A stretch of 64,000 bases of DNA from Agromyces terreus (lineage in GTDB: Bacteria; Actinomycetota; Actinomycetes; Actinomycetales; Microbacteriaceae): positions 496,001 through 560,000 of the forward strand of contig NZ_WBIS01000001.1 of the NCBI RefSeq assembly GCF_009749465.1. Direction: 5' to 3'. Made by a program: the position numbers and the translations under genes. Shown one piece after another: positions 35,815 through 51,446 of the stretch. The notes under the pieces were generated by a model. That model did no database searches and was not told where the DNA came from. It saw only the letters and a program-made list of their open reading frames with translations. Within the stretch, counting starts at the first letter, position 1. The number at the start of each line of letters is the position of its first letter.

Positions 35815-35820
35815 TAGTTT
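35815..35820 (+). promoter_or_regulatory. -10 box upstream of the PP2C gene
   Basis: TAGTTT with a predicted leader of about 60 bases and GAGGAG (35876-35881) ahead of GTG 35886. It is the likely main promoter of the phosphatase-FHA-kinase operon. Confidence 0.4.
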
Positions 35821-35885
35821 GGGGTGGCGGCGCCGGGTGCGGCGCCCGGGAATCTCCCGGTTGGTGAACGGCGACGAGGAGCACC

Positions 35886-36770
35886 GTGTCCCCTGATGGC
35901 GAAGACGTCGTCGCGCTCGAGCAGGCTTCGGCCGTGATCGCTCACAGCGCGCGAACGGATGTCGGGCGCGTGCGCAGCGTGAACGAAGACGCCTTCCTCG
36001 CGGAAGCGCCCGTCTACCTCGTGGCCGACGGCATGGGCGGTCACGCGCGCGGCGACGCGGCGAGCCGTGCCGTCGTCGAGACGTTCCGACGCCACCTCGC
36101 GGTCGGCTCGCCGTCCACGCCCGAACAGGTGCTCGACGCGATCCACTCCTCGAACGAGGCCGTCCGCGCCCTGAGCGACGAGGGCGACGAGGGCACGGCG
36201 GTGGCCGGCACCACGCTCACGGGCGTGGCGCTCGTCGACGCCGGCGACGGCGCCGGGTTCCACTGGCTGGCCTTCAACGTCGGCGACTCCCGCATCTACA
36301 CCTGGGACGGTCGCACGCTCCGCCAGCTCAGCGTCGACCATTCCGCGGTGCAGGAACTCGTCGACGCCGGGCTCCTCTCGCCAGAAGACGCCGAACGCCA
36401 TCCCGACCGCAATGTGATCACGAGGGCCATCGGCGCCGACGACGTCGTCGAGCCCGACCTCTGGCTCATCCCCGCCTCCGGGCGGCAGGTCTTCCTGCTC
36501 TGCTCCGACGGCCTCAGCAAGGAGGTCGACGACGAGACCATCGCGCGGGTGCTCACGGGCGACACCGGGCACGCGGCCGGCCTCGCGGGCGAGCTCGTCG
36601 ACCTGGCGCTCGAGCACGGCGGCCGCGACAACGTGAGCGTGGTCGTCGTCGAGTCGGCGCTCGCCGCACCCGACGACGCGTCCACGAGGGACCGCCCCGC
36701 CGAGGTCTTCGCGTCAGAGGACACGACCCCGAGACGAGAGGACGGCGCCCATGGCGACGTACACGACTGA
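35886..36770 (+). CDS. PP2C-type Ser/Thr protein phosphatase
   Basis: 294 residues. Metal-binding acids are in VNEDAF (E34, D35) and VADGMGGH (D48), then GDSRIY near residue 135, LLCSDGLSKEVDD near 203 and GGRDNVSVVVVE near 244: a complete, probably active PPM phosphatase of the PstP type. It is expected to reverse the action of the kinase two genes downstream. The last 35 residues are Asp/Arg-rich and outside the fold. Its 3' end overlaps the FHA gene by 20 bases. No membrane helix, so unlike PstP it is cytoplasmic. Confidence 0.92.
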   Translation: MSPDGEDVVALEQASAVIAHSARTDVGRVRSVNEDAFLAEAPVYLVADGMGGHARGDAASRAVVETFRRHLAVGSPSTPEQVLDAIHSSNEAVRALSDEGDEGTAVAGTTLTGVALVDAGDGAGFHWLAFNVGDSRIYTWDGRTLRQLSVDHSAVQELVDAGLLSPEDAERHPDRNVITRAIGADDVVEPDLWLIPASGRQVFLLCSDGLSKEVDDETIARVLTGDTGHAAGLAGELVDLALEHGGRDNVSVVVVESALAAPDDASTRDRPAEVFASEDTTPRREDGAHGDVHD

Positions 36771-38085
36771 TCCAGAGGGCTCCGCGCTCGCCGTGGTCCG
36801 CGGCTCGACCGTGCTGATGGTTCCGGCCGAGGCGGCCGACGCCCTGAACGACCTGTGGCCCGTGCTCGCCGAGGCCGACCCCACGCGCGCCGTGCTCGAC
36901 CGGCTGACGGCCGACGGCCTCTCCGAGACGCCGTCCTTCGCCCTCGCGGTCCACACCGAGGGCGGCGGCGAGGTGCGCCTCGTCGTGCGCGGTCGGTTCG
37001 CGGCGCGCGTCGACCTCGAGCTCGTCGAGGGCGCCGGCGTGTCGACCTGGGTCGAGCGGGTCGTCAGGGGCCGCACGGTCGTCGTGAAGGCGACGGATGC
37101 CTCGCCCACGGGCCGCCCGACGTTGCCGATCATCGAGGGCGTGGTGCCTGCGGCATCCGTCACGTCGACGGGCATCGAGGCCGTGACGGAGTCGGTCGCG
37201 CCCGCGCCCGTGTCCGTGGCCGCCGCCGAGTCGGGCGAGGCCGCTGCGGCGGACCCGGGCGATGCCGGCCCGTCCGAGGCGGGTGCGGCCGAGAGCCCGG
37301 CCGCCGCCGCAACGAAGGGCACCTCGGCCGCGGGCGCGGTGCCGACGGAGCCCGTGCGCACGCCGGCCTTCCCGCCCCCGCCGGCTCCTCCGGCGTCCCC
37401 GGCCGCCCCGGGCGCCGACTCCGATGCCGACGGCGGGGCCCCGGCCTCGCTCGACGACGCCACCGTCGTCTCGGTGTCGGGCCGCTCCGCCCGCGCGCTC
37501 GCGGCGCAGCAGGCCCAGTCCGGCGCCGAGCAGACCATGATCCCGCCGACCGAGACCGCATCCGGCGACGACGCCGACGGCGCCGACGGCGGCGACGGCG
37601 GCGACGGCGGCGACGGCGGCGACGCGGTGCAGGCGGGCGACCATGACGGCATGACCATCGTCGGCCTCGACCTCCAGCGGCTGCGCGAGCGTCGGGGCGA
37701 CGCTGAGCGGTCCGCGCCGCAGGCGGCCGATTCCCCGTCCGAGGCGAAGTCGCTCGCGCTCCGCCTGCCCGACGGCACCATCGAGCCGATCACCCACGAG
37801 GTCGTGCTCGGGCGCTCGCCGAGCGCGAGCCAGCTCGCCGGCGGGCGGTTGCCGAAGGTCGTCGCCATCGGCGCGGGCGATCACGACATCTCCCGCAACC
37901 ACGTGCGCGTCACCGTCGAAGGCGACACGGTCGTCGTCACCGACCTCCACTCGCGCAACGGCACGCATGTCGCCCAGCCCGGCAAGGCGCCGGTGCGGCT
38001 CCGCGCCGGGGAGCCGACGCCGGTGCTCACGGGCACCGTGGTCGACCTCGGCGGCGGTTGGACCCTCCAGGTGGTCGCGATCTGA
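36751..38085 (+). CDS. FHA-domain protein with long Ala/Pro-rich linker
   Basis: 444 residues. Residues 1-125 form a conserved N-terminal domain (VVRGSTVLMVPAEAADALN, then FALAVHTEGGGEVRLVVRGR) not recognised. Residues about 130-320 are Ala/Pro/Asp-rich, including a GGD repeat near residue 285. Residues about 335-440 are an FHA domain: EVVLGRSPSA (phosphothreonine-binding Arg), ISRNHVRV and DLHSRNGTHV. It would bind phosphothreonine on partners, probably substrates of the kinase that follows. It ends with a TGATG junction on that kinase gene. Confidence 0.85.
   Translation: MATYTTDPEGSALAVVRGSTVLMVPAEAADALNDLWPVLAEADPTRAVLDRLTADGLSETPSFALAVHTEGGGEVRLVVRGRFAARVDLELVEGAGVSTWVERVVRGRTVVVKATDASPTGRPTLPIIEGVVPAASVTSTGIEAVTESVAPAPVSVAAAESGEAAAADPGDAGPSEAGAAESPAAAATKGTSAAGAVPTEPVRTPAFPPPPAPPASPAAPGADSDADGGAPASLDDATVVSVSGRSARALAAQQAQSGAEQTMIPPTETASGDDADGADGGDGGDGGDGGDAVQAGDHDGMTIVGLDLQRLRERRGDAERSAPQAADSPSEAKSLALRLPDGTIEPITHEVVLGRSPSASQLAGGRLPKVVAIGAGDHDISRNHVRVTVEGDTVVVTDLHSRNGTHVAQPGKAPVRLRAGEPTPVLTGTVVDLGGGWTLQVVAI
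37587..37622 (+). repeat. 9-base tandem repeat in the first FHA gene
   Basis: Four in-frame copies of a GGCGGCGAC unit code Gly-Gly-Asp repeats in the disordered linker; copy number could change without frameshift. Confidence 0.85.
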
Positions 38086-39794
38086 TGCGCCGCGCCACCT
38101 CCACTCCGCCCGAACTGCCCGGGTACACCCCGATGAACCTGCTCGGTTCGGGCGGGTTCGCCGACGTCTTCCTCTACGAGCAGCGCCTGCCTCGCCGCAA
38201 GGTCGCCGTCAAGGTGCTGCTCACGGAGCAGCTCGGCCGCGACACCCGCGCGCAGTTCGTCGCCGAGGCGAACCTGATGGCGCAGCTCTCGGCCCACCCG
38301 TTCATCGTGACGATCTTCCACGCGGATGTCTCGGCCGACGGCCGCCCGTACTTCGTCATGGAGTACTGCTCCGGGCCGAGCCTCTCCGAGCAGTACAAGC
38401 GCGCGCCGTTCGCCGTCGCCGACGCGCTGCGCACCGGCATCCGCATCTCGGGGGCCGTGGCGACCGCGCATGCCGCCGGCATCCTGCACCGCGACATCAA
38501 GCCCGCCAACGTCCTGACCAATGACTACGGATGGCCGGCCCTCACCGACTTCGGCATCTCCTCGAACCTCGACGGCGAACTTCCCGTGCACACGATGACG
38601 ATGCGCCCGGGGGAGTCCGCCACCGGGAGCACCGGGTCGGCCGCGGTCGGCATGAGCGTGCCCTGGTCGCCCGCCGAGATGTTCGAGGACGATCCCCGAC
38701 CCGATCCGCGCAGCGACGTCTTCTCGTTGGCGGCGACGGTGCACACCCTGCTCGCCGGCCGTTCGCCGTTCGAGATCCCGGGGCGCTCGAACGGCACCCT
38801 CGACCTCATCGGGCGCATCGAGCGCGGCTCGATCACGCCCATGCAGCGCGACGACGTGCCGCGCAGCCTGAACGCGGTGCTCGCGAAGGGCATGGCGGTG
38901 CGGCGTGAAGACCGCTACCCGAGCGCGGTCGAGTTCGCGCGCGCCCTGCAGCGCGTCGAACTCGAGCTCGGATACGCGGCCACGACGATCGAGGTGCCGA
39001 ACCTCGTCGTGGCCGAGTCCCACGACTCCGACGACGACGCCGACGCCACGAGGGCCCGCAGCGTCCGCACCATCGACGCGCAGGCCGCCGGGGCGGCCGC
39101 GGCATCCGTCGCCGCGCCGGGCGCCGACGAGACGGTCGCACGCGCGCCGAAACAGGTCGTCGCGCAGACGCCGGCGAGCGACGCGACCCTCGCCCGTCCC
39201 TCGGCCGATCCCGCCGCATCCGGGGTCGAGGATCGCACCGTCGTCCGCGGCGCCCCGTCGACGACGGCCGCTCAGGCCTCCCCGACCGCGGGCTCCGACG
39301 TCGACGACGGCACGATCATGCGCCCGGCGGGCGCCGCGCCGGCGACGTCGCCCGCGACATCCGCCGACGGCACGCCGCGCCCGCGCCGCTCGAAGACGGG
39401 CCTCGTCGTCGGCCTCGTCGCCGGCCTGATCGTGGTCGGCGCGGTCGTGACCGCGATCGCGATGGCCGGATCGATGCCGGGGCCCGAAGCGGAACGACCC
39501 GCGGCCACGAGCGGCGAGGACGCGGTGGCCGAGGCGACCGTTCCCAAGCCGACCGTCGCCGAGGGCGTGCGATCGGCCGACGGCGCGAGCGTCGCATTCG
39601 AGATCTCCGTCGACGGGGCGGAGGAGGGCGACCTCTTCCGGTGGAAGCGTTCCGACGGCAGCGGCACGGTCGAGGTCGCCGAGGCGTCCCCGATAGTGGT
39701 CGCCGGTGTCGGACCGAACGAGAAGGTGTGCATCGACGTGCAGACGCAGCGCGGCAGCCGAACGTCCGAGCCGACCACGGGGTGCACGCCGTGA
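38085..39794 (+). CDS. Membrane-anchored Ser/Thr protein kinase
   Basis: 569 residues. Kinase domain about 15-280: Gly-rich LGSGGFADV, ATP lysine K43 in VAVKVLL, HRDIKPAN with D137, DFG with D155. The activation segment is unusual: instead of the GTPxYMAPE pattern it has a Ser/Thr/Gly-rich stretch ending MSVPWSPAEMF. Residues about 310-435 are a Thr/Ala/Pro linker with repeated acidic-Thr spots (DETV, DATL, DRTV, DGTI), which look like FHA-binding or autophosphorylation sites. One helix at about 438-462, then a short extracellular domain of about 85 residues with two Cys. The start codon overlaps the FHA stop by one base. Confidence 0.92.
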   Translation: MRRATSTPPELPGYTPMNLLGSGGFADVFLYEQRLPRRKVAVKVLLTEQLGRDTRAQFVAEANLMAQLSAHPFIVTIFHADVSADGRPYFVMEYCSGPSLSEQYKRAPFAVADALRTGIRISGAVATAHAAGILHRDIKPANVLTNDYGWPALTDFGISSNLDGELPVHTMTMRPGESATGSTGSAAVGMSVPWSPAEMFEDDPRPDPRSDVFSLAATVHTLLAGRSPFEIPGRSNGTLDLIGRIERGSITPMQRDDVPRSLNAVLAKGMAVRREDRYPSAVEFARALQRVELELGYAATTIEVPNLVVAESHDSDDDADATRARSVRTIDAQAAGAAAASVAAPGADETVARAPKQVVAQTPASDATLARPSADPAASGVEDRTVVRGAPSTTAAQASPTAGSDVDDGTIMRPAGAAPATSPATSADGTPRPRRSKTGLVVGLVAGLIVVGAVVTAIAMAGSMPGPEAERPAATSGEDAVAEATVPKPTVAEGVRSADGASVAFEISVDGAEEGDLFRWKRSDGSGTVEVAEASPIVVAGVGPNEKVCIDVQTQRGSRTSEPTTGCTP

Positions 39795-40504
39795 AGGCGC
39801 TCAAGGTCGAGTACTGCGGCGAGTGGTACACGGTCGAGACCGACCGGACGTTCACGATCGGGCGAGACGCCGACCTGACCATCGACGAGAACCCCTACCT
39901 GCACCGCGTGTTCCTCACGCTCACGTTCGAGTTCGGGCTGTGGTGGCTCTCGAACGTGGGGCAGCTCCTCGCCGCGACCGTCTCCGACGCGACCGGCAGC
40001 GTGCAGGCCTGGGTCGCCCCCGGCGCGAAGCTCCCGCTCGTGTTCCAGCAGGTGCAGGTCATCTTCAGCGCGGGCGCCACGACCTACGAGTTCGCGGTCC
40101 ACGCCGAGGAGGACTTCTACAACACCTCGCTCACGGCGACGACGACCGACGGCGGCACGACGATCATGCCGGTCGCGCTCACGTCCACGCAGCGGCTGCT
40201 CGTGCTCTCGCTCGCCGAGCGCGTGCTGCTGCAGCCCTCGGCCGGGCGCGCGACGGTGCCGACCTCGGCCGAGGCCGCCGCCCGACTGGGGTGGAGCATG
40301 ACGACCTTCAACCGCAAGCTCGACAACGTGTGCGAGAAGCTCGACCGGCTGGGCGTCGACGGCCTGCGCGGCGGGCGCGGCAAGCTCGCGACCAACCGTC
40401 GCATGCGGCTCGTCGAGTACGCCGTGGCGACGCGCCTCGTCAGCGCCGACGACCTGCCGCTGCTCGACCGCGCGGAGCCGGCCGCCGCGGACGCCGCAGA
40501 GTGA
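39791..40504 (+). CDS. FHA-like domain fused to a helix-turn-helix domain
   Basis: 237 residues. N-terminal half is FHA-like (YTVETDRTFTIGRDADLTI, then ENPYLHRVFLTL) although the pThr-binding Ser/His pattern is only partly kept. C-terminal half, from about residue 130, begins STQRLLVLSLAERVLL and has a helix-turn-helix-like SAEAAARLGWSMTTFNRKLDNV stretch, then a basic RGGRGKLATNRR patch; it probably binds DNA. GTG 39791 overlaps the kinase stop (GTGA). This could turn kinase signals into transcription of the adjacent surface-protein genes. Confidence 0.75.
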   Translation: MKALKVEYCGEWYTVETDRTFTIGRDADLTIDENPYLHRVFLTLTFEFGLWWLSNVGQLLAATVSDATGSVQAWVAPGAKLPLVFQQVQVIFSAGATTYEFAVHAEEDFYNTSLTATTTDGGTTIMPVALTSTQRLLVLSLAERVLLQPSAGRATVPTSAEAAARLGWSMTTFNRKLDNVCEKLDRLGVDGLRGGRGKLATNRRMRLVEYAVATRLVSADDLPLLDRAEPAAADAAE

Positions 40505-40508
40505 CGGG

Positions 40509-40539
40509 CGGATGCCTCGGCTCCGCGCCGCGGCATCCG
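40509..40539 (+). terminator. GGATGCC hairpin after the FHA-HTH gene
   Basis: CGGATGCC (40509-40516) with GGCATCCG (40532-40539), followed by a small hairpin ATGGGG/CCCCAT (40559-40576). These split the signalling genes from the giant-protein gene. Confidence 0.6.
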
Positions 40540-40599
40540 TCGATGACCGACCGTGTCGATGGGGATGCCTCCCCATTCGGGGGACGGCCGCGCCCGTGT

Positions 40600-40605
40600 T
40601 AGGTT
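40600..40605 (+). promoter_or_regulatory. -10 box upstream of the giant surface-protein gene
   Basis: TAGGTT, with a leader of about 55 bases that ends in AGGAG (40655-40659), 7 bases from GTG 40667. Confidence 0.45.
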
Positions 40606-40666
40606 ATGCCGGACGCCGGCCACGCATCCGCCGGCGTCGGGTCGTCGCATTATGAGGAGTCGAGAC

Positions 40667-43600
40667 GTGGGCACGTTCACCTCCTGGCTTCGTGCGCGCA
40701 AGACCCTCGCCTCCGGCGTCGCGATCGCCGTGCTCGCCGGCGTGCCGCTCACGGTCGCGGTGCTCCACCAGGGATTCCCGGTCACCGATCCCGACCTCCG
40801 TGCGCGCGACGTCTGGGTCACGAACGCCGAAGAACTGCTCACCGGTCGGCTGAACCGGCAGATCGAAGAGCTCGACGCGGCCGTCTCGACGGCCTCCAAC
40901 GAAGCCGACGTGTTCCAGAACGGCGACGACGCGTTCCTCTACGATCCGAGCGCCGGTTCCATCGAGCGCATCGACCCCTCGTTCACGACGCTGTCGCAGC
41001 GCATCGACGTCCCACCGGCCTCGCGCATCGCCTACGGCGGCGACGTCATCGCCGTGCTGTCGCCGAAGGGCGAGCTCTGGAACGTGCAGGCCGGCGCCGA
41101 GCTCTCGTTCGACTGGCGGGGCACCGAGCCGCTCGCGAAGCTCGGAGAAGACGCCCAGGTCGCGGTGACCGACGAGGGCACCATCCTCGCGACCTCGAAG
41201 AAGTCGTCGAACCTGCAGCGGTTCGTGCGCGGCACCGCCGACGACCCCGAGATCACCGAGCTGCCCGAACTGGGCGACCACCAGCTCGCCGCGGTCGGCG
41301 ACCGAGCCGTCGTCTTCGACGAGGAGGCGAACGAGGTCCTCGTCGACGGGCGGGCGACCGAGCTGCCCGCGCCCGGGCTCCGCCTGCAGCAGACGAGCGC
41401 CGAGAACGGGGCCGCGTACGTGGCCACGGCGTCCGGCCTCGTCGAGATCGGGCTCGACGACGGTGCGGTGCGCGAGCTCGACACCGACGAGCCCGCCCCC
41501 GAAGCGGGCAGGGCGGATGTCGCGGCGCCCGTGTGGCTCGACGGCTGCGTCCACGGCGCCTGGGCGCCGAACGGCCGCTACCTCGTCGCATGCGACGAGG
41601 AGAAGCCGCGCACCATCGCGATCGACCAGCCCACCGCCGGCGCACGGCTGGAGTTCCGGGTCAACCGAGACGTGATCGCCCTGAACAACCTCACCAACGG
41701 CAACGCCTGGCTCGTCGACTCCGAGCTCCGCCTCGTCGACAACTGGGAAGAGGTGACGCCGCCCGAAGAGAGCGACGAGCTCGAGGGCGACGAGAAGAGC
41801 GCGCAGCAGACCTTCGAAGACACGATCGCCGAGCGCACCGACCAGAACCGCCAGCCCACGGCACGCGAAGACGACTACGGCGCACGCCCCTCGCGCACGA
41901 CGATCCTCGACGTCCTCGAGAACGACACCGACCCCGACGGGGACGTGCTGACCGTTGCCTCCACGACGGGCATCCCCGAGTCGATGGGCCGCATCGAGCC
42001 GATCGACGACGGGCGGGCGCTCCAGTTCTCGCCGGCCGAGAACGCCGCGGGCACCGTCTCGTTCCGGTACACCGTCGACGACGGCCGCGGGGGCGTCGCC
42101 GAGACATCCGTCAACGTGCGCATCGTGCCCGAGAGCGAGAACACCGCGCCGACGTCGATGCGCTCCGGGGCGATCAGCGTCGAGCAGGGGCAGCAGGTCT
42201 CCTACAACGTCCTCGCCGACTGGCGCGACCCCGACGGCGACGATCTCTACCTCGTGAACGCCTCGCCCGTCGGCGGCGACTCGGTGCGGTTCAGCCCAGA
42301 CGGCTACCTGACGTTCCAGCACAAGTCGGCCGAGATCGGGCAGAAGGAGGTGCAGTTCACGGTCTCCGACGGCGAGACGTCCGCGAGCGGCACCCTCACC
42401 GTCGAGGTCAAGCCGTCGGGCGACTTGAACCCCATCGGCACGCCCGACTTCGCCCGCGTCTTCGCCGGAGAGACGGCGCTCATCGAGCCGCTCACCAATG
42501 ACGTGTCGCCCTCTGGCGCGCCGCTGACGCTCCTCGGCGTCGAGGAGGTGCCCGACGACGCCGTCGTCACGCCCAACGTCGAGCGGGGCTCGATCACGTT
42601 CGAGAGCGGTGTGCCGGGCGACTACGTCTTCGTGTACAACCTCGGCGCAGAGGCCACCGTGAGCGTCGGCCTCATCCGCGTGCAGGTCGTCGAACAGCCC
42701 GCCGAGGCGCTCGCGCCCATCGCGGTCAAGGACACCGCCTACCTGCGCCCCGGCGAGCCGCTGTCGATCCCGGTGCTCGCGAACGACGTGTCGCCGTCCG
42801 GTCGCGTGCTCGCGGTGCAATCGGTCGACGACACCGCGACCGACGGGCTCGTCTCGGTCGAGATCCTCACCAACACGGTCGCCCGCGTCACGGCCTCAGC
42901 GGCGCTCGACCGCCAACTCCAGTTCAGCTACACCGTCTCCGACGGCATCAACACCGCGAGCACGACCGTGACGGTCGTGCCGGTGCCGCCGCTCGTGAAG
43001 AACCAGCCCCCGGTCGCGGTCGACGACCGTGCGATCGTGCGCGCCGGCGACATCGTCACCGTGCCCGTCACGAAGAACGACTTCCACCCCGACGCGGCGA
43101 GCTTCCACGTGCTGCCCGAGTTGTCCGCTGTCGACGAGCTCAAGGGCCTCGCCTTCGTCGACGACGACACGGTGCGCTACCAGGCTCCCGAGACGGCGGG
43201 CGTGTACAGCCTCGCCTACACGATCGCCGACGAGGCCGGCGAGACCGCGAAGGCGAAGCTCTCGTTCACCGTGATCGCGCGCGACGCCGACTCCAACCGG
43301 CCGCCGCTGCCCACCCCGGTCACCTCGCGCACATTCGCCGGGTCCGCCGTCAAGATCGACATCCCGCTCGACGGACTCGACCCCGAAGGCGACTCGGTCA
43401 CGCTGACCGGCATCACCGTCGCGCCCTCGCTCGGCCGGCTGATCGACCGCACCAGCACCTCGCTCACGTACGAGGCCATGCCGGGGTCGGCCGGCACCGA
43501 CACGTTCGAGTACGAGGTGCGCGACACCTACGGTGCGACCGCGACCGGCACCATCCGCATCGGCGTGGTGCCCCGCCCGCCGGTGCAGCTGCCGCCCACC

Positions 43601-46054
43601 GCGGTCGACGACGCGATCGAGATGAAGCCCGGCCGCACGGCGTCGGTCGAGGTGCTGCTCAACGACTCCGACCCGAGCGGATACAGCCTGAGCGTGACGA
43701 AGCTCGCCGACATCGACGAGGGCATCACGGCCGAGATCCGCGACCGCCGCCGGGTCATCGTCGAGGCACCCGAGACCGAGGGCGCCTACACGGTGCGCTA
43801 CGAGATGTCGAACGGGCACGGCGGCGCCGACGCCGCGTTCCTCCAGATCGCGGTCACCGAAGACGCCGTCATCCTGCCGCCCACCGCCGAAGACCAGGTC
43901 ATCGAACCCGAAGAGGTGCTCGACGGCGAGAAGGTCACCGTCACCCCGCTCGCCGACGCGACGAACTCCGGCGGGCTGGTCGAAGACCTCGTGGTCACGG
44001 CCGAGGGCCCGAACGCGGGTCGCGCCGAGATCGACGAAGACGGACGCATCACGGTGGAGCCCGGCCGCGAGCGGTACGCGGTCGCCTACCGGCTCACGAA
44101 CGAGCTCGACGACCTCTCGGCGATGGCCTTCGTCATCGTGCCGCCGGCTCCCGATCCCGAGAGCGGCGAAGAGGCCGTGACCGAAGAGACGTTGAAGCCG
44201 CAGGAGACCGAGAAGGCCGAAGAGGAGAAGGAGCAGAAGACTCCCGAGCAGCTCGCGGCCGAAGAGAAGGCGAAGTTCCCGGCGCCGTACCTGAAGGATC
44301 TCGAGGCCATCGTCGTGCCGATGAACGGCGAGATCTCGTGGAGCGTCGACGAGCTCGTCGAGGTGCCCTCGGGCAACCCCGCCCTCATCCTCAGCGCGAA
44401 CGCGACGAACACCGACGACGACCCGCTCGTCGACGGCACGCACCTGCAGTACATCCCGCAGACCGACTACCGCGGTCAGGCGTCCCTCACGTTCGAGGTG
44501 ACCGACGGCGAGAGCGCCGACGACCCGATCGGGCGCACGGCGATCCTCACGCTGCCGATCACCGTCGGAGACCCCGAGTTCAACGACTCGCCGCCGACGT
44601 TCACCCCGCGCACCGAATCGATCGAGGCCGGCGAGAAGGCGATCGAGCTCGATCTGCGGCAGTCGAGCGACCAGCCGAACCCCGACAACATCGAGCGCAT
44701 CACCTACACGAACCTCGGCGGAACGAGCGCCGACATCGAGGCCGAGATCGTCGACGGGGCCACCCTGCGGGTCTCCGCTCCGCTCGGCGTGCAGCCCGGA
44801 ACCTCCACACGGCTCACCTTCGACGTGAACTTCAACGAGTTCACGGTCGAGGGTTATGTCGACGTGAAGGTCGTCTCCTCGACGAGGGCCCTTCCGAAGG
44901 CGAAGGACGACCTCGACCACGAGATGGATCGGAGCTCCTCGCTCGACATCGACGTGCTCGCCAACGACTTCAACCCGTTCGCGCAGGACGGCGTTCCGCT
45001 CCGGGTCGTGGGCGCCGAGCTCACGCAGGCCGGCGTCGAGGCGAGGGCCTCGGTGTCCTTCACCGACAAGGGCATCACCGTCAACACCGGAGCCGCGTTC
45101 ACCGGAACCCTCGCGGTCATCTACACGATCGAAGACGGCACGAAGGACAAGCTGCGACGCACCACCGGCAACGCGACCGTCATCGTGCGCGCACCGCCCG
45201 ACAAGCCGAACGCGCCGACGGCGACGGCCTCCGACGCGTCTGGAACGGTCAAGTGGGCGGCGCCGGCGAAGAACAACGCCGACATCGACGCGTACCAGGT
45301 GCAGCGCATCAACGGCGGCACGACCAAGACGTACGACTTCGGCGCCGGCGCAGACGGCACCGCCCACCGCATCGACATGGTGAACGGCACGACGTACACG
45401 TTCAAGGTGCGTGCGCACAACGTCAAGGGCTGGGGCGCGTGGTCGTCGGCGAGCAACGCCGTCACCCCCTACGGCACGCCCGGTCCGGTCCCCTCGGTGA
45501 GCGCCTCGGCGCGCGGGTACGGCCCCACGGCCGTCGACTTCTCGTGGTCGGCGCCTCGCGAGACCGGCGGCGGCGGAATCACCTACGAGGTCAAGCTCGA
45601 CGGCGGCGGCTGGACCAACGTGGGCACGGGTCGCACGCACGCGATCGGCGGGGTCGGCATCGGCAACCACACCGTGCAGGTGCGCGCGGTGAACACCGGG
45701 AGCGGCGAGAAGGGCGGCGCGGCCTCGCGCACCTTCACCGTCGAGAAGAAGCCCGATCCGCCGAAGTCGCTGACGCTCAACCGAGGATCGGCGATGGGCC
45801 CGTACCACGGCGCCTACGGAAACTGCAACGGCACGTGCTACTTCTTCAACGTGTCGCTCGACAACTTCCCGCCGAACACGACGGTGACGGTGTCGCTCTT
45901 CTGCAACAGCTACGAGCTCAGCACGAAGCCGAAGGTCAACATCAACGGCAGCGGGCACGGGTCGTGGAGCGGCGGCTGGGTCAACGGCAACCCCTCGGCG
46001 TTCTGCGGTGACCAGGGATACGCCGAGGCCGGCGGACTGAGAGACGGTTGGTAA
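40667..46054 (+). CDS. Giant Ig-like/fibronectin III repeat surface protein
   Basis: 1795 residues. One N-terminal helix (residues about 14-34) after a basic start makes a signal anchor or signal peptide. Residues about 40-390 look like a beta-propeller-type region (repeated short strands such as FLYDPSAGSIERID). Residues about 397-1505 hold about eleven Ig/cadherin-like repeats of 90-100 residues, with starts like PPTAVDD and cores like VLENDTDPDGD. A Glu/Lys-rich linker interrupts them near 1165-1205. Two fibronectin III domains (about 1511-1600, 1604-1690) and a 100-residue tail with four Cys follow. No LPxTG sorting signal. GTG 40667 has AGGAG 7 bases upstream; an ATG at 40652 has none. 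The MoxR gene follows 21 bases downstream. Confidence 0.88.
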   Translation: MGTFTSWLRARKTLASGVAIAVLAGVPLTVAVLHQGFPVTDPDLRARDVWVTNAEELLTGRLNRQIEELDAAVSTASNEADVFQNGDDAFLYDPSAGSIERIDPSFTTLSQRIDVPPASRIAYGGDVIAVLSPKGELWNVQAGAELSFDWRGTEPLAKLGEDAQVAVTDEGTILATSKKSSNLQRFVRGTADDPEITELPELGDHQLAAVGDRAVVFDEEANEVLVDGRATELPAPGLRLQQTSAENGAAYVATASGLVEIGLDDGAVRELDTDEPAPEAGRADVAAPVWLDGCVHGAWAPNGRYLVACDEEKPRTIAIDQPTAGARLEFRVNRDVIALNNLTNGNAWLVDSELRLVDNWEEVTPPEESDELEGDEKSAQQTFEDTIAERTDQNRQPTAREDDYGARPSRTTILDVLENDTDPDGDVLTVASTTGIPESMGRIEPIDDGRALQFSPAENAAGTVSFRYTVDDGRGGVAETSVNVRIVPESENTAPTSMRSGAISVEQGQQVSYNVLADWRDPDGDDLYLVNASPVGGDSVRFSPDGYLTFQHKSAEIGQKEVQFTVSDGETSASGTLTVEVKPSGDLNPIGTPDFARVFAGETALIEPLTNDVSPSGAPLTLLGVEEVPDDAVVTPNVERGSITFESGVPGDYVFVYNLGAEATVSVGLIRVQVVEQPAEALAPIAVKDTAYLRPGEPLSIPVLANDVSPSGRVLAVQSVDDTATDGLVSVEILTNTVARVTASAALDRQLQFSYTVSDGINTASTTVTVVPVPPLVKNQPPVAVDDRAIVRAGDIVTVPVTKNDFHPDAASFHVLPELSAVDELKGLAFVDDDTVRYQAPETAGVYSLAYTIADEAGETAKAKLSFTVIARDADSNRPPLPTPVTSRTFAGSAVKIDIPLDGLDPEGDSVTLTGITVAPSLGRLIDRTSTSLTYEAMPGSAGTDTFEYEVRDTYGATATGTIRIGVVPRPPVQLPPTAVDDAIEMKPGRTASVEVLLNDSDPSGYSLSVTKLADIDEGITAEIRDRRRVIVEAPETEGAYTVRYEMSNGHGGADAAFLQIAVTEDAVILPPTAEDQVIEPEEVLDGEKVTVTPLADATNSGGLVEDLVVTAEGPNAGRAEIDEDGRITVEPGRERYAVAYRLTNELDDLSAMAFVIVPPAPDPESGEEAVTEETLKPQETEKAEEEKEQKTPEQLAAEEKAKFPAPYLKDLEAIVVPMNGEISWSVDELVEVPSGNPALILSANATNTDDDPLVDGTHLQYIPQTDYRGQASLTFEVTDGESADDPIGRTAILTLPITVGDPEFNDSPPTFTPRTESIEAGEKAIELDLRQSSDQPNPDNIERITYTNLGGTSADIEAEIVDGATLRVSAPLGVQPGTSTRLTFDVNFNEFTVEGYVDVKVVSSTRALPKAKDDLDHEMDRSSSLDIDVLANDFNPFAQDGVPLRVVGAELTQAGVEARASVSFTDKGITVNTGAAFTGTLAVIYTIEDGTKDKLRRTTGNATVIVRAPPDKPNAPTATASDASGTVKWAAPAKNNADIDAYQVQRINGGTTKTYDFGAGADGTAHRIDMVNGTTYTFKVRAHNVKGWGAWSSASNAVTPYGTPGPVPSVSASARGYGPTAVDFSWSAPRETGGGGITYEVKLDGGGWTNVGTGRTHAIGGVGIGNHTVQVRAVNTGSGEKGGAASRTFTVEKKPDPPKSLTLNRGSAMGPYHGAYGNCNGTCYFFNVSLDNFPPNTTVTVSLFCNSYELSTKPKVNINGSGHGSWSGGWVNGNPSAFCGDQGYAEAGGLRDGW

Positions 46055-46075
46055 CGACAGGATGAGGAAGAAGCA

Positions 46076-47044
46076 ATGGCAGTAACGCAGGAGCAGGCCA
46101 CCTGGTTCCAGGACGCCTTCTCGAAGCTGGTCGACAACATCGATCAGGCGATCCTCGGCAAGCGGCCGACGATCGAACTGGTGGTGACCGCACTGCTCTC
46201 CGACGGCCACGTGCTGCTCGAGGACTTCCCCGGCACCGGCAAGACCGTGCTCGCGAAGGCGCTCGCCAACACGCTCGACGGCACCCACTCGCGCATCCAG
46301 TTCACGCCCGACCTGCTGCCCTCCGACGTCACAGGCGTGACGATCTTCGACCAGGGCAAGGGGCACTTCGAGTTCCACCGCGGCCCGATCTTCGCCTCCA
46401 TCGTGCTCGCCGACGAGATCAACCGCGCGAGCCCCAAGACGCAGTCGGCGCTGCTCGAGGTCATGGAGGAGGGCCGCGTCACGGTCGACGGCGTCGGCTA
46501 CGAGGTCGGCAGCCCGTTCATGGTCATCGCGACGCAGAACCCGGTCGAGCAGGCGGGCACCTACTCGCTGCCCGAGGCGCAGCTCGACCGGTTCCTCATC
46601 AAGACCTCGCTCGGCTACCCCGACCACGACACCGCGGTGACGCTGCTGCTCGACTCCGCCAACCGCGCACGCGCGTCGAAGGTCTCGCCGATCATCGCGT
46701 CGAGCTCGGTGACGACCATGGCGCAACTCGCGTCCGACGTGTACGTCGACGCGGCCGTGCTCGGCTACCTCAACGAGATCGTCACCGGCACGCGCGAGCA
46801 CAAGGACTCCGCCCTCGGCGTCAGCATGCGCGGGGCGCTCGCCCTGGCCCGCGCGACGAAGACCTGGGCGATCGGCCACGGCCGCACGTACGTGACGCCC
46901 GACGACGTGCGCGAGCTCGCCGTGCCGGTGCTCGCGCACCGCATCATCGTCGATCCCGAGGCCGAGTTCGCCGGTGCCAAGGCGGAGGACATCGTCTCCT
47001 CCGTGCTCGTCGACGTCGCTCCGCCCGCGTACCGCGCCGCATGA
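46076..47044 (+). CDS. MoxR-family AAA+ ATPase
   Basis: 322 residues. Walker A GTGKT (53-57), Walker B IVLADEIN near 112, sensor 1 TQNP near 151, sensor 2 region near 254 (SMRGALALARATK). MoxR ATPases act as chaperones that mature or activate partner proteins, typically with a DUF58/VWA protein coded next door, as here. The ribosome-binding site GAGGAAG lies about 8 bases before ATG 46076. The stop overlaps the DUF58 start (ATGA). Confidence 0.93.
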   Translation: MAVTQEQATWFQDAFSKLVDNIDQAILGKRPTIELVVTALLSDGHVLLEDFPGTGKTVLAKALANTLDGTHSRIQFTPDLLPSDVTGVTIFDQGKGHFEFHRGPIFASIVLADEINRASPKTQSALLEVMEEGRVTVDGVGYEVGSPFMVIATQNPVEQAGTYSLPEAQLDRFLIKTSLGYPDHDTAVTLLLDSANRARASKVSPIIASSSVTTMAQLASDVYVDAAVLGYLNEIVTGTREHKDSALGVSMRGALALARATKTWAIGHGRTYVTPDDVRELAVPVLAHRIIVDPEAEFAGAKAEDIVSSVLVDVAPPAYRAA

Positions 47045-48339
47045 GCGCGGAGCCGCGCGCGCCCCGACCCCCGTCGCAGGCGCGCATCGCCGCACGGTCG
47101 GTCGGGCGTTCGCTCGCGGCATCCGCCGTCTCCGCCTCGACCGCGATCGCCGGCGCCGGACGTCGGGTGCGGGAATGGGCCTCGCCCGTCACGGGCATCG
47201 TGTCGCTCACCGGCTGGTTCGTGCTGCTCGCCTCGCTCATCGCGTTCATCGGGGCGGCGCTGCTCGGCTGGATCGAGCTCGTGTTCCTCGGCGCGACGCT
47301 GCTCGCGGCGCTGCTCGTGAGCGTACCGTTCACCTTCGGCCGCATGCAGTACCGCGTGCAGGTCGCGCTCCAGCCCACCCGCGTCGTCGCCGGCGAACGC
47401 GCGTTCGGCCGCCTCGCGGTGACGAATGCCGGCCAGAAGCCGTCGATCCCGTCGCGCATGGAACTGCCCGTGGGCGCCGGCCTCGCCGAGTTCGTCGTGC
47501 CCGGCCTGCCCGCAGGCGCGGAGCACGAGGAGCTCTTCGCCGTTCCGACATCCCGCCGCGCCGTGATCGTCGCGGGCCCGGCGATCTCCGTCCGCGGCGA
47601 CCAGCTCGGCCTCCTCCGGCGCATCGTGCGATGGAGCGAGCCGGTCGAGCTGTTCGTGCACCCCGTGACTGCGCGGCTCAAGCCGTCGGCCGCGGGACTC
47701 GTGCGCGACCTCGAGGGCGAGATCACGAAGACGATCACCGACAACGACATCTCCTTCCACGCGCTCAGGGCGTACCAGCCCGGCGACCCGCTGCGGAACG
47801 TGCACTGGCGCACCTCCGCGCGCACGGGAACGCTCATGGTGCGCCAGTTCGAGGAGACGAGGCGTTCGCAGCTCGCGCTCCTGCAGTGCACCGAGCGCGC
47901 CCACTACGCCTCCGACGACGAGTTCGAGCTCGGCGTGTCGGTGCTCGCCTCGCTCGGCGTGCAGGTGATCCGCGACGCGACGCGGGTCGACATCCTGACC
48001 GAGCAGCTCACCCTCCGCACCGCCACGCCGACGGCGCTGCTCGACGACACCAGCCGCATCGACGCGGCATCCGGCGCCCACGACACCCTTCGCACGTTCG
48101 TGCGCGAGCGCACGAAGCGCCTGTCGCCCCCGAGCGTCGCGATCCTCGTCGCGGGTTCTCTCGTGCCCCTGGCGGAGTTCCGGTCCGCCGAGACGGTCTT
48201 CGGGCCTGACACGCAGACGCTCGCGTTCCGGGTCGAGGCGGGCGCCGCGTCGCGGATCGCGAAGGTGGCCGGCACGATCGTCATCACGGTCGGCTCCCTG
48301 GCCGACCTCGCCGGCCTCGTCGGGAGGGTCCGACCATGA
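47041..48339 (+). CDS. DUF58-domain membrane protein
   Basis: 432 residues: two transmembrane segments at about 54-75 and 78-98, then a large domain with the DUF58 signature YQPGDPLRNVHWRTSARTG near residue 243, followed by a VWA-like region. DUF58 proteins are the usual partner of MoxR ATPases; the pair is thought to act in assembly or activation of an envelope complex. It is coupled by ATGA overlaps both to MoxR upstream and to the transglutaminase-like gene downstream. Confidence 0.9.
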   Translation: MSAEPRAPRPPSQARIAARSVGRSLAASAVSASTAIAGAGRRVREWASPVTGIVSLTGWFVLLASLIAFIGAALLGWIELVFLGATLLAALLVSVPFTFGRMQYRVQVALQPTRVVAGERAFGRLAVTNAGQKPSIPSRMELPVGAGLAEFVVPGLPAGAEHEELFAVPTSRRAVIVAGPAISVRGDQLGLLRRIVRWSEPVELFVHPVTARLKPSAAGLVRDLEGEITKTITDNDISFHALRAYQPGDPLRNVHWRTSARTGTLMVRQFEETRRSQLALLQCTERAHYASDDEFELGVSVLASLGVQVIRDATRVDILTEQLTLRTATPTALLDDTSRIDAASGAHDTLRTFVRERTKRLSPPSVAILVAGSLVPLAEFRSAETVFGPDTQTLAFRVEAGAASRIAKVAGTIVITVGSLADLAGLVGRVRP

Positions 48340-50627
48340 CGCGCATCCCCAGATCGGCCACGACCGACCTCATCGTGCTCGCCGTGCTCTCGGTGCTCGC
48401 CATCGCGGGCTACGAGACGAGCTTCGGCGACCTCGACTTCCTCCTCGCCGCCGCAGCGGGGCTCGTCATCGGCACGCTCGCCGCGGTCGTCGGCACCCTG
48501 CTGCGCCTCGGCGTGCTCACGACCGTGCTGCTCGGGCTCGCCGCCTACTTCGTGCTCGGCACGCCCTTCACGATGCCCGACTCGGCGCTGTTCCTCGTGC
48601 TGCCGAGCCTCACCTCGCTCGCCGGGCTCGCCCTCGGCGCCGTGTACGGCTGGGCCGACATCCTCACGATCGGCACGCCCGTCGAGGCGCCGTACTACAT
48701 CGCCGTCGTGCCGTACTTCGCGGCCTGGGCGGTCTCTCTCGTCGGATCGATGCTCGTCCTGCGCTGGCTTCCGCGACGACGCACCGTGCTGCGCAGCGCC
48801 GTCATCCTCGTCGGTCCGCTGCTGCTGTTCATCTCGGGCATCCTCCTCGGCACCGACGAGGCGTTCTTCGCGGGCGTCCGCGGCGTCGCGTTCGCCGTCA
48901 TCGCGCTCGTCTGGCTCGCCTGGCGCCGTGGCGCCGACGTCGAGACCGACGAGGCCGGCGCCAAGAAGCTCCGGGCGCAGAAGCTGCGGGGCTCGGCCGT
49001 CGTCGTCGTCGGCGCCGTCGCGATCGGCGCCCTCGCCGGCCTCGCCGTCGCACCCGTCGCACCCGACCGGTTCGTGCTGCGTGACGAGATCGTGCCGCCG
49101 TTCGACCCGCTCGAGTTCTCGAGCCCCCTTGCCGGATTCCGCAACTACACGAAGGACCTCGCCGAGGAGCCCCTCTTCACCGTCACGGGCCTCGAGCCGG
49201 GCGACACGATCCGACTCGCGTCGATGAACTCCTACACCGGCCGACTGTGGAACGTCGCGGGCCCCGGCGACGCCGATGCCGACGGCGGGTACGCGATCAC
49301 CGGCCCGACGCTGCCGCAGCCCTCGCTCGCGACCCTCGGCCGCACCCGCTCCGTCGAGATCGACGTCTCGGGCTACGACGACGTCTGGCTCCCGACGGTC
49401 GGCTACGGATCGCAGCTGGAGCTGGAGGACGACGAGACGGCCGCACGCACCGGCGACCTGCGGTACAACGCCGCCGCGGGCACGGCAGTCCTCACGAGCG
49501 GCCTCGGCGAAGGCGCGCGGTACCGCCTCGACGCAGCGCTCCAGACCGAGCCGAGCGACGACGCGCTCGCCGATGTGCCCGTCGCGACCGTCGAGCTGCC
49601 CGCGGTCGAGAACGTGCCCGACGTCGTCGCGGCGAAGGGGGAGGAGTACGCGGGGGAGGCCACCACGCCGATCGAGCAGCTCCGCAACATCGAACGCGGA
49701 CTCAAGACCAACGGATTCCTCAGCCACGGGCTCGCGTCGGACTCGGTCGCCTCGCGAGCCGGGCACGGCGCCGACCGGCTCATCGAGCTCTTCACACGGA
49801 CCTCGATGGTCGGCGACGAGGAGCAGTACGCCGCGGCGATGGCGCTCATGGCGCGCCAGCTCGGATACCCGGCGCGCGTCGTCATGGGATTCGCCCCCGA
49901 GATCGGCGAGGACGACGCCACGGTCGAGGTGCTCGGCGAAGACGTCACCGCGTGGGTCGAGGTGCCGTTCGAGGGCGTCGGCTGGGTCTCGTTCCATCCC
50001 ACGCCCGAGGAGATCGACGCGCCGCAGGAGCAGACGCCGAAGCCGAAGTCCGAGCCGCAGCCGCAGGTGCGCCAGCCCCCGCGCGCCGAGGCGGTCGAGG
50101 ACGACCTGCTCTCCACCGTCGAGATCGACGACACCGACGACGAGGACAAGGACCGCGAGTTCCGCATCCCGGGCTGGGTGTGGGTGGCCACCGCCTCGAT
50201 CGCCATCCCGCTCGCCATCGTCTTCCTGCCGATGCTCGTCGTCGCCCTCGTGAAGGCGCGCCGGCGCCGCCGACGCCGCGCCGAGGCGAACGAGGTCGCC
50301 GCCGCCGCCGCGTGGGACGAGCTCATCGATCGCTACGCCGAACTCGGCTTCGAGCCGCCGCAGCGCTCGTCGCGTCTGCAGACGGCGTACGCCCTCGAAC
50401 GCCAGGCGGCCGATCAGGGCGTCGCGCCCGACGGCGACTCCGGCGCGCTCGCGCTCACGGCGCTCGCCGCGAGCGTCGACCGCGACGTCTTCGACGGCGA
50501 GCAGGTCGCGTCCGAGACGGTGGTCACGCGATGGAACGAAGCGGATGCCGCCGCCGCCGCCGTCTCGGCGGCCGTCGGCCGAACACGGCGCTTCGTCGCC
50601 CGCTACCGCATCCGTCGTCGTCGGTAG
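48336..50627 (+). CDS. Transglutaminase-like membrane protein lacking its catalytic triad
   Basis: 763 residues. Seven or so helices in residues 8-245, an extracytoplasmic region of about 360 residues containing a transglutaminase-like core, a helix at about 612-636 and a cytoplasmic tail of about 125 residues. Standard members carry G-x-C-E-x-Y/F-A, then H-A-W-V-E-V, then F-D-P-T-P. Here the three catalytic positions read E495 (GDEEQYA), T538 (VTAWVEV) and H554 (FHPTP): Cys, His and Asp are all replaced while the flanking motifs stay intact. It is predicted to be a pseudoenzyme, perhaps binding rather than cross-linking. The stop codon TAG also begins a -10 box for the next gene. Confidence 0.88.
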
Positions 50628-50630
50628 AAT
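50625..50630 (+). promoter_or_regulatory. -10 box, leaderless promoter overlapping the upstream stop
   Basis: TAGAAT begins with the transglutaminase-like gene's TAG stop and is exactly 6 bases from GTG 50637. Confidence 0.55.
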
Positions 50631-50636
50631 GCCCTC

Positions 50637-51446
50637 GTGGTCGCACCGGAGTTCATCGTCCCCCCGCCGGGGTTGATCCCCGACGCGCCCGAGCCCCGCG
50701 CGCAGAAGCCGGAAGACCGTGCTGCCGAGGGCGCCGACGGCGTGCACCACGTCGACGACGGCGGCGGTCGCCCGGTCGAACCGCTTCAGCCGCACACGGG
50801 CAGCGTTCCCGGCGCGACCGATCGCACGGTGAGGGCTGTGCCCGTGCGGCCCCTCCCCGGCTACACCCCGTTGCCCTCGGCTCCGCCGTCCGCGCTCGTC
50901 GCCCAGCCGAACGCGGCTCCGCTCCCGGCCGCGCCCGCGCCCGCGCCTTCGGCCGCGCCCGCGCCTCCAGCCCTGCCGACGCCGTCGGCCGTGCCGTCCC
51001 CGCCCTCCATGCAGGCCGCGCCGGCACCCGCGGCCCCGCCGGCCGAGCTGACGATGCCGCCGGCGTTCCTGCCGACCGCGACCGCGCCGAGGCCCTCGGC
51101 AGCCCGGTTCCGCCTCGAGACCCCCGACGGCGTCGAGATCGAACTGTCGGATCGGTGCGTCCTGGGTCGCAACCCGGTCGCCGCCGGCACGAACGCCGAT
51201 GCCCGTGCCGTCGCCGTCGTCGACCCCACCCGAACCGTCTCCAAGACGCACGCGCTCATCGAGATCCGCGAGGGGCGCGTGATCGTCACCGACCTGCACT
51301 CGACCAACGGCGTCGCCGTCCAGGCCGGCGGCGGCGAGGTCACGGTCCTCGACGCCGGGGCCCCGGCCGCGGTCGAGCCGGGGTCGGTGCTCCGCCTCGG
51401 CGACCTGGCCCTGACGCTGCGCAGGTCTGCCGGGTTGACGGTGTAG
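50637..51446 (+). CDS. FHA-domain protein with Pro/Ala-rich N-terminal half
   Basis: 269 residues. Residues 1-150 are Pro/Ala-rich with scattered acids and look disordered; [24 protein letters not shown] (from about 158) opens an FHA domain with the binding Arg in LGRN, SKTHALI near 201 and [10 protein letters not shown] near 218. The pThr-binding residues (Arg, Ser, Asn) are kept, so it should bind phosphothreonine. It closes the surface-protein cluster and could link the kinase to the MoxR/DUF58/transglutaminase-like part. GTG start set by the -10 box 6 bases upstream. Confidence 0.88.

Follow-up and report, generated by a model that had tools for sequence, protein, structure and literature searches.

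The locus at positions 35815..51446 of a 64,000 nt stretch of the Agromyces terreus genome (NZ_WBIS01000001.1, positions 496,001-560,000; the window) is a fuller form of the PFNA operon described in Bifidobacterium. Its nine genes lie closely packed on one strand and form two cassettes that we read as one functional unit: a regulatory cassette of a PP2C phosphatase, an FHA protein (FHA1), a membrane Ser/Thr kinase and a protein joining an FHA fold to a helix-turn-helix (FHA-HTH), and a surface cassette of a giant surface protein, the ATPase MoxR, a DUF58 membrane protein, a transglutaminase-like protein (TGM) and a further FHA protein (FHA3). The union of the kinase/FHA set with the giant and the MoxR-DUF58-TGM trio is already known as the PFNA operon, and it is the published range and enzyme assignment of that operon that need correcting. 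The gene linkage, the loss of the TGM catalytic Cys, the arrays of acidic threonine tags and the recurrent palindrome upstream of the giant gene were computed directly, and the FHA and propeller folds are predicted. We propose a mechanism in which a phosphothreonine-addressed circuit would control the synthesis and handling of the giant, an account that seems to us to lie slightly on the probable side.

Relation to the PFNA operon and its range

According to the published reports, the PFNA operon comprises pkb2 (the kinase), fn3, aaa-atp (MoxR), duf58 and tgm, to which some species add prpC, a hypothetical gene and fha; it is co-transcribed in B. longum, its FN3 protein has a role in adhesion and binds TNF-alpha, and the operon is claimed to be exclusive to bifidobacteria (PMC8430577, PMC6803598, PMC10688814). 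MoxR is described there as a substrate of the Pkb2 kinase (PMC8430577), and a review likens PFNA to mycobacterial moxR operons (PMC12067865). The window locus has a homologous kinase, FN3 giant, MoxR, DUF58 and TGM in the same order and shares PP2C and FHA with the eight-gene form, but it differs from PFNA in an extra FHA1, an FHA-HTH inserted after the kinase and the palindrome, and in carrying its tags on the kinase and the phosphatase and not on a MoxR tail.

Through one genome (G056) we reached a genus that we presume to be Bifidobacterium, because this genome has exactly the eight PFNA genes in their published order over two stretches (L031 and L158, the latter including a 204-aa hypothetical gene) and because 90 of the 112 species of the genus gave a TGM match, at least six of these weak. 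The giants of the window and of G056 match with an E value of 1e-123. Far beyond this genus, the matches listed come from Agromyces, Cryobacterium, Schumannella, Microbacterium, Rathayibacter, Agreia, Herbiconiux, Occultella, Cellulosimicrobium, Arthrobacter, Sinomonas, Oerskovia, Promicromonospora, Isoptericola, Georgenia, Glutamicibacter, Propioniciclava, Brachybacterium, Actinomyces, Schaalia and others, so that the published restriction of the operon to Bifidobacterium is contradicted by its range and does not hold. Within the order, a profile of the N-terminal domain of the giant matched 108 of 198 genomes, from 35 of 71 genera, and across the phylum it matched 27 of 296. Twelve of the phylum-wide matches had E < 1e-30 (eight of these within the same order), whereas the weak matches may stem from other propellers. 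In the open-licence PMC literature we found no report of the full system outside Bifidobacterium. As a separate observation, an actinobacterial-type giant with MoxR lies on a small contig (L073, 1-10967) of a record titled Stenotrophomonas maltophilia strain P13, which is probably a contaminating contig.

Linkage of the two cassettes

Linkage was surveyed in 100 loci, namely 79 from named genomes (kept from the best 80 of 515 confirmed, a set that leans to close relatives), 20 chosen from matches in relatives, and the window. The MoxR-DUF58-TGM trio comes after the last giant in 74 of the 81 loci with enough sequence. Among the 85 loci with TGM, genes of the kinase cassette lie on the same strand in 69, with the Ser/Thr kinase, PP2C and FHA1 all seen in 54; a single locus has no cassette gene on the TGM strand (its kinase and FHA1 are on the opposite one), and 15, mostly at the end of a sequence, were not judged. 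The earlier note, made from the window alone, had read nine tightly joined same-strand genes, which we confirm as real, and had expected homologues of the giant to keep company with kinase/FHA and MoxR genes, which these counts bear out. The reverse test gave a similar result, a giant being found within 13 kb on the same strand for 76 of 80 strong TGM matches (down to E 5e-25); the four misses comprise two on fragmented assemblies, one with the giant elsewhere and one genome without a giant.

A second type of locus, found 24 times, has the order giant-MoxR-DUF58-TGM-FHA3-PP2C-FHA1-kinase. In all 16 of these that were checked the regulatory genes are downstream, not upstream, of the surface cassette and FHA-HTH is immediately 3' of the kinase. 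All nine genes are present in 15 of the 16 as a circular permutation, 13 of them having each gene once; the other three loci have two giants (L071), a TGM split in frame (L083) and no detectable FHA3 (L075). Linkage thus survives rearrangement of the two cassettes. Counting frames over 1200 aa as giants, 26 of the 100 loci have two or more, and three parallel systems coexist in one genome, none of which shares its kinase, PP2C, trio or FHA protein with another. The idea of a dedicated unit is therefore well supported by linkage, but the union of the gene set had been published before, as the PFNA operon, and that the unit builds, folds or anchors the giant, as the note had suggested, is something that we infer.

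The TGM protein lacks its catalytic cysteine

TGM (48336..50627, + strand; Pfam Transglut_core) has eight predicted N-terminal transmembrane (TM) helices, a dead core reading GDEEQ at residue 493 and then a ninth TM helix. Cys, His and Asp are each replaced in the window protein, and the Cys-His-Asp triad of an active transglutaminase or TgpA is not found. The only solved relative that we found is 6g49 (E 7e-11), which we take to be TgpA. In the survey, the site of the nucleophilic Cys is occupied by D, E, Q, A, S or G in all 75 alignable TGMs (a frameshifted row, L109, was dropped), preceded by GD in 75 and followed by EQ in 73; 36 copies keep His, 43 keep Asp and 30 keep both. The presumed Bifidobacterium genus gives the same picture: its 30 best-matching TGMs, one of which is the same protein as that of L031, all read GDSEQ with His and Asp replaced too, and in five of greater distance the residue is S (three times), D or G, hence Cys is missing in 35 of 35 read.

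The window genome has seven Transglut_core matches, three of them in PFNA-type loci. About 1.7 kb past the window end lies a separate MoxR-DUF58-TGM trio (C12:561688-566260, L157) whose TGM keeps Cys and His, with Glu in place of Asp; a further Transglut_core protein keeps Cys and His, and two more gave no pattern match. The window locus resembles the MoxR-DUF58-transglutaminase trio of the MRP subfamily of MoxR ATPases in gene order and differs from it in a TGM without Cys. Judged by sequence, cysteine chemistry is unlikely for the PFNA-type "transglutaminase", and because the dead site is conserved we read it as a probable binding surface. Loss of the TGM catalytic Cys was not found reported in the open-licence PMC literature.

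Upstream of TGM are MoxR (46076..47044, +; Pfam AAA_3 E 5e-62, with Walker motifs), which has no N-terminal tail in the window, and DUF58 (47041..48339, +; Pfam DUF58 E 1.5e-11), with two TM helices predicted from hydrophobicity. The window DUF58 reads LLQCTER where several relatives carry Asp, a place that we take to be a metal-binding (MIDAS-like) site, and DUF58 may be a second degenerate partner beside TGM.

Threonine tags on the kinase and the phosphatase

The membrane Ser/Thr kinase (38058..39794, +; Pfam Pkinase E 5e-31, HRD and DFG kept; start codon uncertain) has a kinase domain, an acidic-Thr linker, one TM helix (residues 449-467 by hydrophobicity) and a small extracellular domain; its PADLOC matches cover the kinase domain and were set aside. 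Defining a tag as a Thr followed by Arg at +3 and preceded by an acidic residue at -1 to -3, the linker holds five (T331, T359, T377, T394 and T419; 39048..39314, +). Across 42 kinase linkers there are 110 tags against 14.4 expected (standard deviation 3.6, maximum 27 in 1000 shuffles), with at least one in 35 linkers and at least three in 25; 18 further kinases, for which the linker end or TM was not located by script, were dropped. The excess holds in the 34 linkers with a mutual string similarity under 0.5 (81 tags versus 11.3 expected). The acidic-Thr spots singled out by the note as possible FHA ligands are thus strengthened, and they extend to the phosphatase. PP2C (35886..36770, +; Pfam PP2C_2 E 1e-13, catalytic motifs present) has a C-terminal tail with the tag SEDTTPRR, and 47 of 52 PP2C tails have at least one tag (63 versus 8.1 expected, maximum 17 in shuffles). 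That the T-x-x-R excess in PP2C (3.1 times) is an artefact of the catalytic motifs was ruled out, the excess lying in the C-terminal tail. By the T-x-x-R definition, MoxR, FHA1, FHA3, FHA-HTH, DUF58, TGM and the giant are all at 0.47-1.02 of expectation.

Two further motif definitions extend this pattern. The linkers of FHA1 (36751..38085, +), which has a long linker and a canonical C-terminal FHA domain (Pfam FHA E 1e-7; GR/SRNH/NGT motifs), are enriched in the looser motif [DE]T[VILM] (73 versus 22.7 expected; controls 0.64-0.99). In ten bifidobacterial-type loci an N-terminal tail on MoxR contains SD-x-T-x-L motifs, which often follow one another in tandem; by this third definition the ten tails hold 38 motifs against 5.9 expected (maximum 18 in 2000 shuffles) and the kinase linkers 95 against 25.1, and eight kinase linkers read from the presumed Bifidobacterium genus have 0 or 1 motif each. 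The tail motifs fit the published phosphorylation of MoxR by Pkb2. Neither the tags of kinase linkers and PP2C tails nor the MoxR-tail array was found reported in the open-licence PMC literature.

FHA-HTH and the palindrome ahead of the giant gene

FHA-HTH (39791..40504, +) has an FHA beta-sandwich fold at about residues 1-108 in an AlphaFold2 model compared by Foldseek and VIA-align, followed by helices that are predicted to be HTH-like. The FHA relation comes from the 3D comparison, with no support from profile-profile comparison or a PDB profile search. As to the Arg, Ser and Asn by which FHA domains contact phosphothreonine, GR and N-V-G are invariant in an alignment of 17 sequences, but the stretch where FHA domains usually have S-x-x-H reads NP[YF]LH. 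A search of 24 genomes gave the protein in 21, the exceptions being the genomes of L055, L088 and L114; in the genomes of L063 and L094 it lies elsewhere (L201 and L202).

Ahead of the window giant gene lies a palindrome, GGGGATGCCTCCCC (GGGGA-N4-TCCCC), followed at fixed spacing by TGTTAG (40561..40602, +; pattern scans), which we predict to be the operator/promoter of that gene. The same pattern precedes 14 of 20 same-genus giants (the window included) and single copies of tandem giants, spanning 42 bases at every site but one. It should be noted that the operator patterns were written after inspecting same-genus upstream sequences, and same-genus counts are not independent of them. The window genome has one copy each of the composite pattern and of the palindrome alone (exact TGGGGANNNNTCCCCA). 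The strict palindrome pattern stands ahead of 41 of 123 giants and 2 of 57 PP2C genes, with none in 446 upstream windows of seven other genes, and a stricter composite pattern occurs in 4 of 25 genomes of relatives, once each and just upstream of a giant, with no control match. With up to 2 mismatches, the palindrome precedes 30 of 61 giants with FHA-HTH in their locus or genome and none of 12 giants without it, against a background of 14 in 2000 random windows, which may include real sites. On the basis of this association we propose FHA-HTH as the likely reader of the palindrome. A 42-base weight matrix built from same-genus sites discriminates less well in other genera: at the 99.5% level it passes 14 of the 36 giants whose locus has FHA-HTH and 14 of the 88 for which FHA-HTH is not in view. 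A sigma-70 scan gave no promoter, and a terminator scan gave one site, on the other strand and below the shuffle mean. The palindrome before giant genes was not found reported in the open-licence PMC literature.

Two paralogous loci of the window genome, C3:33001-53000 (L021) and C20:539501-559500 (L022), have their own kinases; they are without FHA-HTH, and no palindrome stands ahead of their giants.

The giant surface protein and FHA3

The giant (1795 aa; 40667..46054, +) has an N-terminal TM helix (residues 4-33 in the model), a predicted beta-propeller at about 45-357, compared in 3D by VIA-align, an Ig/cadherin-like stalk, one or more FN3 domains and a fast-evolving tip. Within one genus the pairwise identity of the tip is 29%, versus about 72% for residues 1-1500. 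Single-linkage clustering of 134 tips gave two large classes (83 and 39) plus small ones, with the tips of all 20 same-genus orthologues in a single class and every tip in a different class at 9 of 25 tandem loci. Hence rapid tip divergence stands, and tip swapping, in which unrelated tips occur at one locus, was not upheld. In eight loci with tandem giants (L038, L039, L041, L042, L043, L045, L046 and L053) the first copy has one tip class and the later copy the other, in the same order. A terminal Trp was rejected as a signal, W being at the end of 31 of 117 giants counted. The last gene of the locus, FHA3 (50637..51446, +), encodes a proline-rich N-terminal part and a canonical FHA domain (Pfam FHA E 6e-8; motifs present).

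Comparison with other known systems

Type VI secretion has a threonine phosphorylation pathway in which a surface machine is gated by a kinase and a PP2C phosphatase whose output an FHA protein reads, and the kinase, PP2C and FHA proteins of the window would work alike. A search covering the nine window genes alone found no type VI structural family among them, and FHA3 scores 31.7 against TagH, where the cut-off is 120. EspM of mycobacteria, as described in two papers, has an N-terminal FHA and a C-terminal HTH and regulates genes of the adjacent ESX-1 (PMC7002343, PMC11005418); we compare it with FHA-HTH at the level of domain order and adjacency to a membrane system, in which they are alike. 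MoxR is also central to the MoxR-vWA ternary conflict systems. The window MoxR passes bpMoxR (39.1 bits, cut-off 27) and AAA_3 scores far higher, and none of the nine genes matches a vWA or VMAP family in Pfam.

Proposed mechanism and alternatives

Between the computed points and the published ones (co-transcription and MoxR phosphorylation) we infer the following steps. The giant would be held by its N-terminal TM helix, with the propeller outside and close to the membrane and with a long stalk and variable tip likewise exposed, acting as an adhesin or contact receptor. TGM, polytopic and using its dead transglutaminase domain for binding, would form a membrane complex with DUF58, and the MoxR ring would work on this complex to fold, release or remodel the giant. 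We propose that the kinase senses something via its extracellular domain and phosphorylates the threonines of the acidic-T-x-x-R tags, both in its own linker and in the PP2C tail and, where the locus is of bifidobacterial type, in the MoxR tail. FHA1 and FHA3 would then bind the phosphorylated tags, bringing together the kinase, the phosphatase and the assembly complex, PP2C would reset the circuit, and FHA-HTH would take the same phospho-signal to DNA at the palindrome ahead of the giant gene. In its most specific form, which we advance tentatively, the proposal is of a self-addressing phosphothreonine code: interchangeable acidic-T-x-x-[R/L] tags, placed on the kinase linker and the phosphatase tail and in one lineage on that of MoxR, would be read by FHA proteins and so assemble the TGM/DUF58/MoxR machine on the giant, with FHA-HTH passing the signal to a single palindromic operator.

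Several observations weigh against this circuit and against strict coupling of its parts. The seven loci at which the trio does not follow the giant comprise four giants without an adjacent trio (L024, L070, L072 and L093), one whose only trio gene is a MoxR at a distance of about 8 kb (L097) and two where giant, DUF58 and TGM are present without a MoxR between them (L026 and L061). Seven of the 42 kinase linkers have no tag, L035 and L040 have tags on neither kinase linker nor MoxR tail, and the counts, those of the tags included, come from related sequences and are hence dependent. The palindrome contrast (30/61 versus 0/12) has a Fisher value of 0.001 with kinship ignored, and the group without FHA-HTH is mixed, nine being assigned by locus (two in the window genome) and three by genome. 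No palindrome is recognisable at 31 of the 61 giants with FHA-HTH, and 50 giants, 23 of them with a palindrome, fall outside both groups. Neither FHA-HTH nor palindrome is in the stretches read of bifidobacterial-type loci, and we therefore place transcriptional control outside the core.

An alternative that we consider unlikely is that the giant is a receptor and not a client: its tip would bind outside, its propeller or stalk would touch the kinase extracellular domain, the circuit would report inward, and MoxR-DUF58-TGM would reset the giant after signalling. Such a receptor would suit the three parallel systems of one genome, each with its own kinase and giant, the much faster divergence of the tip than of the stalk, and the high variability of the kinase C-terminal region in bifidobacteria noted in PMC8430577, but L024, L070, L072, L093 and L097 have giants with no kinase in view. 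It is likewise doubtful that the regulatory cassette sets expression only, through FHA-HTH at the giant promoter, with the trio as an unregulated chaperone. The association of the palindrome with FHA-HTH, its uniqueness in the window genome and the regulation of adjacent ESX-1 genes by EspM (PMC7002343, PMC11005418) all favor such a division, yet it leaves two further FHA proteins and the PP2C tag without a role, and bifidobacterial-type loci keep the kinase, an FHA protein and a tagged MoxR without FHA-HTH.

The published view that the operon senses host immune signals (cytokines) draws on the binding of TNF-alpha by a B. longum FN3 fragment and on induction by TNF-alpha, as given in PMC8430577 and PMC10688814. 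However, homologous loci occur in Agromyces, Cryobacterium, Arthrobacter, Microbacterium, Isoptericola and others, some with Root or Soil in their record titles, and WSxxS, our approximation of the published cytokine-receptor mark, is in 78 of 134 giants (111 copies versus 14.2 expected). The genera outside Bifidobacterium also include the host-associated Actinomyces and Schaalia. As a general function, immune sensing is contradicted by this range and is very improbable; it may be a side use in bifidobacteria. An enzymatically active TGM, crosslinking or cleaving the giant as a transglutaminase or cysteine protease, seems to us scarcely credible. The Transglut_core and 6g49 matches and the 30 of 75 copies that keep both His and Asp would suit such an enzyme, but the nucleophilic Cys is missing from every survey and presumed Bifidobacterium copy read and kept in another TGM of the window genome. 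Barring takeover by some other residue, this refutes Cys chemistry for the copies read.

The consequences reach beyond the window. Homologous loci in many other actinobacteria remove the main basis for PFNA as a system evolved for host-immune sensing, and host immune sensing is therefore unlikely to have been the original job of the operon. The phosphothreonine circuit that we favor also offers a compact, testable model for the role of MoxR-DUF58-transglutaminase trios, that of an ATPase machine with a likely client identified and a phospho-switch, and the phospho-code together with the operator would render this mechanism directly testable.

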